Source of the DNA: Roseibium sp. TrichSKD4
GTDB lineage: Bacteria > Pseudomonadota > Alphaproteobacteria > Rhizobiales > Stappiaceae
Assembly (NCBI RefSeq): GCF_000148725.1
Contig: NZ_GL476307.1
Coordinates: 81,608 to 145,607, forward strand
Direction of reading: 5' to 3'
DNA length: 64,000 bases
How positions within the stretch are numbered: position 1 is the first letter of the stretch; each line of letters opens with the position of its first letter. The translations under genes were made by a program, and so were the position numbers. The notes under the pieces are model-generated. The model was not told the origin of the DNA. It did not search any database and worked only from the letters and a program-made list of their open reading frames with translations. This document shows, one piece after another, positions 40,734-47,839 of the stretch.

Positions 40734-41251
40734 ATGGTCCGTTCGCTTACATGGCTACTTGCCTTGCTTGTCGGTTTGGGGCTTGCGGGCCCAACGGTGG
40801 CGCAATCATTCTTCGATCCTGCAACGAAGAAGTGGGTTTCCTATAAACTCACGCCGGAAGCTGCGAGCAAGATTGCACGCAAGAAATTCAAACGTAAATC
40901 CGTTTCCTATCGTACCGATGAAGCGCCGGGGACATTGATTGTCGATACGCGCAAGCGCTGGCTCTATCATGTGCAGGAAAACGGCAAGGCCGTTCGCTAC
41001 GGGATCGGTGTTGGTAAAGAAGGGTTTACCTGGAAGGGGACGTAAAAGATCACGGCCAAGCGCAAGTGGCCGGGCTGGACACCTCCACCAGAGATGATTG
41101 CACGGGAGCGGAAAAAGGGACGCAAGCTTCCTGCTTATATGCCGGGCGGGCCGAAAAATCCTCTTGGGGCACGGGCACTCTATCTGGGCAATACGATTTA
41201 CCGAATCCACGGGACCAATGAAGATTGGTCCATCGGGCAGGCTGTTTCTTC
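40734..41251 (+). pseudogene. L,D-transpeptidase (YkuD/ErfK), 5' part, interrupted
   Basis: ATG 40734 begins a signal-peptide protein (MVRSLTWLLALLVGLGLAG then a likely cleavage near PTVAQS). It continues with the ErfK/YkuD region LIVDTRKRWLYHVQENGKA. At 41043 an in-frame TAA falls between TWKGT and KITAKRKWPGWTPPPEM. The frame is then open again through PGGPKNPLGARALYL and [15 protein letters not shown] to 41251, where the 6.5-kb insertion begins. The gene's last 27 codons, with the catalytic cysteine, are at 47758-47839. The product would have cross-linked peptidoglycan or anchored lipoproteins; it is now inactive by both lesions. Confidence 0.92.
41244..41251. repeat. Left 8-bp target-site duplication
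   Basis: GTTTCTTC directly precedes the insertion and is repeated exactly at 47750-47757. Removing the insert and one copy restores the L,D-transpeptidase reading frame. Eight bases is the duplication length known for the IS66 family. Confidence 0.93.
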
Positions 41252-41558
41252 GTAAGCGCGGTTTTTGAGCTTTTCGTGGACTTTATCCCGTTTGGGCTGC
41301 GACAAGACACAGCTGTGGAGCCGCATTTGCGTTGTTTTCTTTGTTTGGAGCGTCATGCAGGCCTCGGCGGGGGCTTGAGGGCGCGGATTGCGGCGAGGAT
41401 TCGTCCGAAGACGTAGCCTGATACAGCCACCTCTGCCAGTTGGAACGTGATTTTGCGCGCATGGCGTACGACCTTTGCCCCGATTTTGATGAGGCGGCTC
41501 TGGATACTTGTCAGCGACCAGTCGGCGACCTCTTCCGGGAGGTCTACACCTTGCAGGA
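41252..41558 (-). mobile_element. Truncated IS1380-family fragment (transposase C-terminus plus 3' tail)
   Basis: This stretch is the reverse complement of 61433-61739 in the intact IS1380 element, with only about five mismatches in 307 bases. It encodes the last 60 or so transposase residues (ending FGRILAAIRALKPPPRPA, stop at 41353-41355). The natural IS end and about 108 terminal bases are missing on the left, and the upstream transposase is missing on the right. Confidence 0.93.
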
Positions 41559-41759
41559 CAGACCACTACACCTATACGCAAACTTGAAGCCAAGGCCGAA
41601 GGAAAACCGCCAAGCCGTGCCAACAAGGTACAGGTTGGGGCGTTTGTTTCGGATGAAACCCGCCGTAAGCTTAAAATGCTGGCGATTGAACAAGGCCGCT
41701 CGGTCAATGATATGATTGAAGAATCTTTTCAAATGCTCTTTGATAAATACACAACATGA
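41559..41759 (+). pseudogene. Ribbon-helix-helix protein, 5'-truncated
   Basis: 67 codons to a TGA at 41757-41759. The readable C-terminal part contains VQVGAFVSDETRRKLKMLAI then QGRSVNDMIEESFQMLFDKY, a beta strand plus two helices as in RHH DNA-binding proteins (CopG/Arc/ParG type, antitoxins and plasmid partition or copy control). The IS1380 fragment has replaced the true 5' end; an in-frame ATG at 41508 would make a fused 83-residue protein, but that N-terminus is IS sequence. No toxin partner is visible next to it. Confidence 0.7.
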
Positions 41760-41774
41760 TGACATGTCATCATG
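41755..41774. repeat. Perfect 20-bp palindrome over the RHH stop codon
   Basis: CATGATGACATGTCATCATG is its own reverse complement and spans the TGA of the RHH gene; a further GATGACAT follows directly (41773 on). RHH regulators bind short half-sites in tandem or inverted repeats, so this could be an operator or partition-type site, or a simple hairpin. Confidence 0.6.
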
Positions 41775-41983
41775 ATGACATTACAACAATCTGGCATGTT
41801 GAGAGCCGTTGCGCGCCGCATATTTTTTTACGAAATTGACAAACGAGCCTTCGGGCTTATCCGGGTTTAAAATTCTAAGCGGTGATGGAGAGGTGTTCAT
41901 AAGCCCGCGCGTCGCTCTGGCAGAGGCTCAGATCGTTGGGGTGCAGGGGGCAATCTTCATTTAAACAATATATAAACTTACTA
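41775..41983. other. Non-coding spacer upstream of the TadG-like gene
   Basis: About 210 bases with no convincing gene. It contains a small AGCC-ttcg-GGCT tetraloop hairpin near 41845 and an AT-rich stretch (TTAAACAATATATAAACTTA) that may hold the promoter for the downstream gene. Confidence 0.4.
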
Positions 41984-42019
41984 TGCGTAAGTTTTACTCC
42001 AAAGCGGAGAACTTACGCA
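41984..42019 (+). promoter_or_regulatory. 5'-UTR hairpin that pairs the Shine-Dalgarno of the TadG-like gene
   Basis: TGCGTAAGTT (41984-41993) pairs perfectly with AACTTACGCA (42010-42019). Inside, CTCC (41997-42000) pairs with the only Shine-Dalgarno, GGAG (42006-42009), around an AAAGC loop, leaving a TTA bulge. The stem ends two bases before the ATG at 42021, so translation should be shut unless the hairpin is opened. No T tract follows, so it is not an intrinsic terminator. Confidence 0.7.
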
Positions 42020-42020
42020 A

Positions 42021-45337: not shown

Positions 45338-46864
45338 TTACGCTGCCTGAGCAGCGTAACGCCAGGGCAGAAGTTCGTCGAGGCGTGTGATTTTGTGGTC
45401 GGCGACTTGACCGAGGACCCAGGTCAGCCAGGCCTGAGGGTCAACACCGTTGAGCTTGGCCGTTTCGATCAGGGTATAAGCGATAGCCATGGCTTTGCCG
45501 CCGCCTTGGGAGCCTGAGAACATCCAATTTTTGCGTCCGATGGCGACGGGTTTAACGGCGCGCTCGGCGGTGTTGTTATCCAATTCCAGATGGCCGAGCT
45601 CAAGGTATGGGCGTGCTTTCGGCATTCGGCCCAAGGCATAGCGGATGGCCTGCGCGAGTGGTGACTTTCCCGAGATTTTGGGCAATTGCGTCTGCAACCA
45701 TTCTTCCAAGGCGTCAAAGATCGGTTTTGCCCTAGCCTGCCGGATGGTAGCGCGGTCTTCGGGGGGCATGCCCCTGATCTCTTTCTCGATAGCGTAAAGC
45801 TCAGCAATCCGGCGGATGACTTCTTCGGCAATGGCGCTGCCCTGCGAGGAGAAGACATCCACGAACTTGCGTCGTACATGCGCCATGCAGGCCATCTCAT
45901 CGGCTTTGTCGTCACCGAACACACCGTTGAACCCGGAATATCCATCCGCATGGACCCAGCCCTTGTATCCCGACAAATGAGCAACGGGATGCTCTCCTTT
46001 GCGATCCACCGTGAACTGATACCATGCACAGGGTGGCGATTGGCCAGACCAGGCACGCTCATCCCGCACATAGGTCCAGACCCGCGCCGTTTTGGTCTTC
46101 TTGTTGCCGGGGGCCAGCATTTTGATGGGCGTATCGTCGGCAAAAAGCGCAGGTCCTTGCCGCACCATCCGTCCGATGGCATCGGCAAGAGGTTCCAGCA
46201 GGGCCGTCGAGCGACCAACCCAGTCGGCCATGGTCGAGCGGTCCAGATCGACGCCTTCACGGGCAAAGATCTGGCTCAGGCGATAGAGGGGTAAATGATC
46301 GGCATATTTGCTTACCAGAACATGGGCCAACAATCCCGGTCCGGGCCGCCCACGCTCAATGGGGCGCGATGGCAGCGGCGCTTGCACAATCGCCTCGCAC
46401 CATGAACAGGCTTTGCGGGGCCGGATGATCCGCTTCACCTTGAAGCGTCCCGGCACGTATTCCAACTCTTCGGTGACATCCTCACCCAGGGTGCGCAAGT
46501 TGCCACCACAACGACCACATTCATCACCGGGAGAGAGCTCCTCGTCTTCCCGATCCAGATGATCCGGCAAGGGCTTGCGGCTGTGTTTGCGCTTCGGCTT
46601 TGGATCAACTCCCTCCTGCGACGGGGCGGGCTGTTTTGCCTGGTCTTCAGCGGCCTCAACAATCTCGGCGTCCTCGAGCAGATCGAGATTGAGCTGATCC
46701 AGACCCTCAGACTTGGAGCCGAACCGATGCCGATTGGCCCCGTGCAACTGGTGTTGAAGCTGCTCGACCTTGAGGCTCAGAGCCTTGACCTCGTCGGCCA
46801 GAAGGCGGTTCACCGCCCTCAATTCGGCGGGGTCCTCCGGGGTGATATCAAGGTCCTTCAGCAT
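45338..46864 (-). CDS. IS66 transposase TnpC
   Basis: 508 residues. N-terminal leucine-rich coiled coil ([20 protein letters not shown]), a CGRCGGNL zinc-like motif, [13 protein letters not shown], then the DDE core with [38 protein letters not shown] and [20 protein letters not shown] near the C-terminus. These are IS66 TnpC hallmarks. It appears full-length. Confidence 0.96.
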
Positions 46865-46933
46865 CTTCGATCTTATATCAGATCAAGGGCGTAAGTTGAA
46901 TCCCGAGAGGCGCGCAAACGCCAATATATTGGC

Positions 46934-47281
46934 CTATCCGACGCTCAGGGGCCGCCATGTTTTTTGCGGCATCCGCCAGTCTATGCCTTCAAGCAACATC
47001 GACAATTGCGCGGGCGTCACGCTGACCTTACCGTCCTTCGCAGCAGGCCAAACAAACCGGCCCTTCTCAAGGCGCTTGCTGAACAGGCATGCGCCCTGTC
47101 GATCCCACCAGATGATCTTCAGCAGATCACCGCGCCGTCCCCGGAACACAAACAGATGTCCAGAATAGGGATCAAGCTCCAGAACCTTCTCCGCCTGAGC
47201 CGCCAAAGTGTTGAACCCGCGCCGCATGTCCGTCACCCCGGCAGCCAGCCAAACCCGCGCGTTGGACGGCACGGGGATCAC
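46934..47281 (-). CDS. IS66 accessory protein TnpB
   Basis: 115 residues of the IS66 Orf2-like family: [40 protein letters not shown] and [17 protein letters not shown]. Required with TnpA for IS66 transposition. Its ATG overlaps the tnpA stop by four bases, indicating translational coupling. Confidence 0.96.
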
Positions 47282-47685
47282 GGCATTAGACCTTCAACCA
47301 AAGCCAGCACCGTCGGCAGCGCCGTCGTCCCTTCCACCAATACCCGCCGCCCGTCCGACAGCGTGATATCAACCCGCTGAGCCGACAACGGCATATCCGA
47401 GGCAAGCGCCGCGATCTGGTGGCCTGGTGCGGCCTGCGGGCCCTCTATCTCCACTGGTAGAAACGCCGCTCCATCAAGGACGCAATCGCTGTCTTCTGGC
47501 GCAAACCGCTCATCACGCAGCCAGTTGTGGATCAGGTTCGCATTCATCGCAGAGCGGCGCGCAACCTGCGCAACCGAAACCCCCGGCACTCTGGCCTGCA
47601 AACAGATCGACCGCTTCTCGTCATCCGACCAAAACCGCTTCTTGCTGCCCTTCTTCGTACCCAAAATGTGCCTCACAATGTCCAT
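47278..47685 (-). CDS. IS66 accessory protein TnpA
   Basis: 135 residues. An N-terminal helix-turn-helix of the transposase-8 type is visible ([20 protein letters not shown] then [14 protein letters not shown]), followed by a variable part and [20 protein letters not shown]. It is the first gene of the IS66 operon, about 65 bases from the right terminal repeat. Confidence 0.93.
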
Positions 47686-47749
47686 TAACGAAAATGGACA
47701 TTATCACCCCACTGCGCTCCCCGTCAGAGCGGGAATACCGAACGCTCAC

Positions 47750-47757
47750 GTTTCTTC
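47750..47757. repeat. Right 8-bp target-site duplication
   Basis: GTTTCTTC, an exact copy of 41244-41251, directly after the right IS66 end. Confidence 0.93.
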
Positions 47758-47839
47758 CGGCTGCATCCGCATGCTGAACGAAGATGTCGAGCACCTTTAC
47801 AGCCAAGTGAAGGTGGGAACCAAAGTCAAGGTTCGCTGA
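47758..47839 (+). pseudogene. L,D-transpeptidase, 3' part with the catalytic cysteine
   Basis: Continuing the frame across one copy of the duplication gives [20 protein letters not shown] and a TGA stop at 47837-47839. SSGCIRM carries the YkuD nucleophile cysteine and arginine, and the histidine of HGTNED lies in the 5' part, so the active site is split by the insertion. Joined length would be 199 residues. The stop overlaps the converging cyclase gene end by about 14 bases. Confidence 0.92.

Follow-up and report, generated by a model that had tools for sequence, protein, structure and literature searches.

In Roseibium sp. TrichSKD4, a gene for a YkuD L,D-transpeptidase (40734-47839) is split by an insert of 6,498 bp (41252-47749) that carries a complete insertion sequence (IS) of the IS66 family at its right side and begins, at its left, inside a remnant of another IS family, IS1380. 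Coordinates refer to the window, by which is meant the whole stretch of 64,000 nucleotides that was analyzed (contig NZ_GL476307.1, positions 81,608 to 145,607, forward strand). The insert probably arose in a single transposition step in which the IS66 transposase used, besides the right end of its own element, a surrogate end within the IS1380 remnant, and so carried along roughly 4 kb of neighboring DNA. IS66 elements are widespread and some carry passenger genes, yet how those genes are captured has not been worked out. A true IS66 end, a borrowed end and a clean 8-bp duplication found together suggest a concrete route for passenger capture.

The IS66 Element and the Target-Site Duplication

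The right-hand 38% of the insert is a complete IS66 element (45292-47749, minus strand) with the tips GTGACCGTCCGG on the left and GTGAGCGTTCGG on the right, read inward. It has the tnpA, tnpB and tnpC genes and the terminal inverted repeats with GT tips that characterize the family. All three genes lie on the minus strand: tnpC (45338-46864) encodes the IS66 DDE transposase (DDE_Tnp_IS66, E 1e-97), tnpB (46934-47281) encodes IS66 Orf2 (E 1.8e-39), and tnpA (47278-47685), which gave a weak HTH_Tnp_1 match below the cut-off (E 0.0013), was also assigned by its position. Relatives of this tnpC occur in more than 5,000 plasmid records. Six relative IS66 copies have left tips whose alignment starts at query position 1 or 2, which establishes 45292 as the true left end of the element.

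An exact 8-bp repeat, GTTTCTTC, is found at 41244-41251 and again at 47750-47757. It brackets the whole unit from 41252 to 47749 and not IS66 alone: the octamer beside the left tip of IS66, GAAAAATA, does not match the GTTTCTTC beside its right tip, and no 8-bp duplication directly flanks 45292-47749. An accidental repeat was rejected: given the composition of the window, two identical octamers at precisely this spacing have a chance of approximately 1.6e-5. The octamer itself is not rare in the window (nine occurrences against 2.6 expected), and the weight of the evidence thus lies in its position at the two boundaries. A length of 8 bp fits IS66, since clean 8-bp duplications flank two relative copies (L052 and L056, the same copies as L115 and L119). 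The original prediction had reported the exact duplication and linked its length to IS66, and both points hold. The sole matching 8-bp repeat surrounds the unit as a whole, and transposition in one step is the simplest explanation.

The Left Boundary

The left boundary of the insert does not coincide with an IS66 copy. The insert begins with an IS1380-family remnant (41252-41560, minus strand, inner edge approximate) that lacks both IS1380 ends. A complete IS1380 copy elsewhere in the window (60192-61847), with a 12-bp repeat common to both ends and a TTAAA duplication, differs from the remnant by 5 mismatches in 305 bp and extends 108 bp past the point at which the remnant stops. As the complete copy continues beyond this cut, the boundary is internal to IS1380. 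From the boundary base, the remnant reads GTAAGCG inward (41252-41258), native IS1380 sequence that corresponds to 61739 on the minus strand, and all seven of these tip bases match the IS66 family motif. IS66 terminal repeats are published as starting with the same heptamer (PMC11946415), which also forms the right tip of three relative IS66 copies (L051, L056 and L108). Across both strands of the window the heptamer is found at 9 of 128,000 positions; the 41252 site and the equivalent site of the complete IS1380 copy account for two of the nine.

These features bear on two other ways in which the segment could have been mobilized. A composite transposon with two IS66 copies, the left one later lost or overwritten by IS1380, would be the standard way to move cargo and would fit the 8-bp duplication around the whole. 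The boundary, however, is native IS1380 to its last base when the complete copy is used as the reference, and a search of the window for the IS66 right-end sequence, allowing up to 3 mismatches, gave the single site 47730-47749. With IS1380 rather than a second IS66 at the left boundary, the two ends do not carry the same IS, and this highly improbable origin can be regarded as largely refuted. Transfer driven by IS1380 itself was also rejected: neither IS1380 end is present in the remnant, and the 8-bp duplication contrasts with the 5 bp of the complete IS1380 copy.

Two further observations concern the complete IS1380 copy. The site that supplies the surrogate tip sequence (61733-61746) is a near-palindrome, CGCTTACGTAACCG, in which IS66-like tips point both ways. 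The copy itself splits a presumably ComF-like gene, for which the Pfam match is a double zinc ribbon; one part of the gene lies at 59580-60209, and a DDVFTTGST stretch marks its continuation beyond 61848.

Probable Transposition With a Surrogate End

The insert consists of one complete IS and adjacent DNA with a duplication around both, as a unit mobilized through a surrogate end should. The donor would have been an IS66 element situated beside a TadG/EAL region that also contained the IS1380 remnant. Its transposase would have paired the true right end (47749) with GTAAGCG at 41252 as a surrogate left end, and all 6.5 kb between the two would have entered the transpeptidase gene as a single unit, with duplication of GTTTCTTC at the target. 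Whereas the limits of the unit and the origin of its left tip can be read directly, we infer the donor site, the single step and the choice of tip by the transposase. The original prediction of one insertion event for the whole segment stands as the best reading. It had not noticed that the segment is a mosaic with IS66 at one side only, that the left boundary falls inside an IS1380 remnant, or that IS66 itself lacks matching 8-bp flanks. More generally, what looks like an accumulation of unconnected IS fragments can have arisen in a single transposition; here, only the position within a conserved gene reveals this.

Several observations weigh against this explanation. The likeness of the left boundary to IS66 ends stops past the first 7 bp, and a 12-bp tip model places 41252 only within the top 1.3% of positions (1,625 of 127,976). 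The true left end of IS66 remains inside the unit, and its having been skipped is unexplained. Among the relative IS66 copies with both tips placed, four of six have no duplication at all; the absence of one around an IS66 is thus common and may have other causes, which slightly lowers confidence in the reading proposed here. Such a footprint of insertion often disappears. Finally, no second surrogate-end unit was found among the 20 relative loci scanned. In that scan, pattern matching located both tips of six IS66 copies, with simple 8-bp duplications in L115 and L119 and none in L108, L114, L120 and L121. L132 is likewise flanked by an 8-bp duplication, although only that repeat served to locate its left tip. 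Distant repeats of flank octamers in L114 (4.67 kb) and L117 (2.94 kb) were dismissed as chance, with open frames running through both.

The shortness of the tip likeness, only 7 bp, would suit a one-ended IS66 transposition, in which IS66 acted from its right end and an arbitrary site served as the other, with no surrogate recognized. The anatomy expected of such an event, one true end and a duplication, is otherwise identical. An arbitrary site, on the other hand, would show GTAAGCG only about once in 14,000 positions (9 of 128,000), making this a distinctly improbable account. A stepwise history is also unlikely, though it deserves consideration: a plain IS66 flanked by GTTTCTTC would have arrived first, and later rearrangements would have inserted the IS1380/TadG/EAL/IS5 segment to its left. 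The segment is indeed a mosaic of several mobile pieces, IS-rich DNA often rearranges, and relative copies without duplications are common, as noted above. The later DNA would nevertheless have had to enter precisely at the joint between the left octamer and the left tip of IS66, without leaving any trace of IS66 at 41252, and the octamer adjoining the true left tip would have had to change as well.

Near copies of the unit were sought more widely. None was found among plasmids (16 records, with at most 16% of the unit covered). In the 87 family genomes, the longest IS66 matches among the best 3 candidates per genome were 67-73% identical, with higher values only over short stretches, and the best IS1380 match was 71%. 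In a draw of 397 genomes of the order, the best match reached 75%. No description of an IS66 using a surrogate end was found in the literature, a search of open-licence papers in which absence proves little; in two of those papers, one-ended transposition concerns IS91-family elements. Two linked proposals may be offered tentatively: that the IS66 transposase accepts short GTRAGCG look-alike tips in DNA nearby, which would allow a single IS66 to capture and transport several kilobases, and that the present unit is a new-born stage of a passenger-carrying IS66, before the inner true end is lost. Taken together, these seem to us possible rather than probable.

The Interrupted Transpeptidase Gene

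The 5' part of the transpeptidase gene (40734-41251, plus strand) ends in the left copy of the duplication, and the 3' part (47750-47839, plus strand) carries the SSGCIRM motif. The first 103 residues (40734-41042) have no Pfam match. Positions 41046-41252 correspond to positions 47-118 of the YkuD profile (E 0.004; 18.2 bits, below the 23.4-bit cut-off), and 47756-47836 to positions 121-146 (E 3.5e-7, above the cut-off), so that the two pieces are consecutive parts of one YkuD domain. When the flanks are joined with a single octamer, an open frame results, and the identical residues occur in one piece in a relative (L091). Like other YkuD L,D-transpeptidases, the gene has the His and the SSGCIR motif, conserved in relatives, and PF03734 is matched in register by both halves (the 5' half below the cut-off); unlike them, it is broken by a stop and an insertion. 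The Cys codon (47762-47764) lies on the far side of the insert from the codon for what we take, from the YkuD motif, to be the catalytic His (41208-41210). The split, the continuous frame across a single octamer and the separation of Cys from His had all been predicted from the window, and each was borne out.

A misassembly uniting unrelated pieces is a very remote prospect. Repeats are classic assembly breakpoints, and base errors are possible, as the neighboring cyclase gene changes frame near a T run. Neither an exact duplication of 8 bp directly adjoining a true IS66 tip nor an in-register gene junction would be expected from such an artefact.

The insertion is one of two lesions. An in-frame TAA at 41043-41045 on the plus strand, upstream of the catalytic His, is independent of the insertion and was overlooked by the original prediction. 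No stop is present there in any of 11 relatives (11/11). Because the stop precedes the catalytic residues and the insert parts His from Cys, the product can hardly be a working transpeptidase.

The Transpeptidase Locus in Relatives

With the neighboring cyclase as the query, the same neighborhood was found in Roseibium species and in Breoghania, and the hydrolase-transpeptidase stretch was matched in 86 of the 87 family genomes. The locus itself was examined in 32 of the 87, namely the best 30 matches to the hydrolase-transpeptidase stretch together with L006 and L011 from the cyclase scan. Of these 32 loci, 11 have a transpeptidase gene that is uninterrupted and contains no stop, including that of G049, the nearest relative by this locus (hydrolase 79% and permease 92% at the protein level). 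Both neighbors, hydrolase and cyclase, are visible in nine of the 11, with only the hydrolase in L088 and only the cyclase in L091. Set against the intact relatives, the two halves in the window meet in register at the octamer. An uninterrupted allele, which the original prediction proposed to look for in sister strains, occurs in all 11 relatives found to have the gene at this locus.

In the other 21 loci, hydrolase and cyclase are adjacent with no transpeptidase between them, indicating that part of the family can do without the gene. The original prediction had counted relatives without an intact transpeptidase as evidence against its interpretation; these 21 loci are of that kind, while the 11 others carry the gene whole. 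Within the set L063-L092, 21 of the 30 loci (e.g., L064, L066 and L068) have no transpeptidase between hydrolase and cyclase, which suggests that it was lost in a large group of the family. Weaker transpeptidase matches on other contigs of many family genomes hint at a paralog that may cover the loss.

The gene next door encodes a class III adenylate cyclase (47857-49023, minus strand). Its frame changes near the C-terminus, at approximately 47958, beside a T run, and differs there from all three relatives compared. This is either a mutation or a sequencing error.

The Cargo Between the Remnant and IS66

Four features lie between the IS1380 remnant and IS66. The first is a ribbon-helix-helix stretch (Antitox_RHH, PF20605; 41565-41759, plus strand), probably truncated at its 5' end. 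It is followed by a gene for a TadG-like protein of 403 residues with a VWA domain (42021-43232, plus strand) and, convergent with it, a C-terminal fragment of an EAL-domain protein (43429-43620, minus strand). The last is an element with approximate ends (43605-45089, plus strand) whose transposase (43715-45064) matches DUF772 and DDE_Tnp_1 in Pfam, and which is named IS5-like by our own judgment. The TadG of the insert and a G049 protein share 62% identity across 395 residues, the EAL fragment is 49% identical over 41 residues to a G049 gene product, and the convergent pair has the same arrangement there. Given this counterpart in G049, the cargo is, at least in part, ordinary DNA of the bacterial family. 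In G049, a short gene (L101:6449-7024), presumably encoding an H-NOX protein by its appearance, stands ahead of the EAL-protein gene beside tadG.

Comparison With Known Mobile Elements

Members of the IS66 family such as ISPpa5a, ISPpa7 and ISPsko1 are described with a tnpA-tnpB-tnpC order, terminal repeats starting with GT and an 8-bp duplication (PMC3281130, PMC12888890, PMC11946415). The window departs from this pattern in that the duplication brackets IS66 plus 4 kb and not the element itself. Passenger-carrying IS66 elements (tIS66, e.g., ISPa75-fosZ) bear extra DNA on the tnpC side and have duplicated target sites, and their passengers are called likely to have been captured by IS66 (PMC12888890). 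The present unit likewise has extra DNA on the tnpC side and a duplicated target, but it keeps the true tnpC-side end inside, borrows its outer end and carries a mosaic as cargo.

In the transposable modules (TMos) of ISPme1 and IS1247a, which are IS1380-family elements of Paracoccus, a single IS copy moves an adjacent segment (PMC3281130). Here, by contrast, the driver would be IS66, with IS1380 supplying only a passive outer end. For IS801, a member of the IS91 family, one-ended transposition involves a true end on one side and a short end-like sequence on the other, and can carry host DNA (PMC3189936). The unit in the window would share this combination of ends, whereas IS801 uses a tetranucleotide and another type of transposition. 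IS91-type events are not known to leave a target duplication. Capture by ISEcp1, an IS1380-family element that makes 5-bp duplications, can use alternative right ends: it pairs a true end with a poorly matching surrogate end and duplicates the target, which is also the arrangement proposed for the unit described here. Single-IS capture is thus known for the IS1380 family and cargo-bearing elements are known for IS66; the proposed use of a surrogate end by IS66 would be a variant of these.

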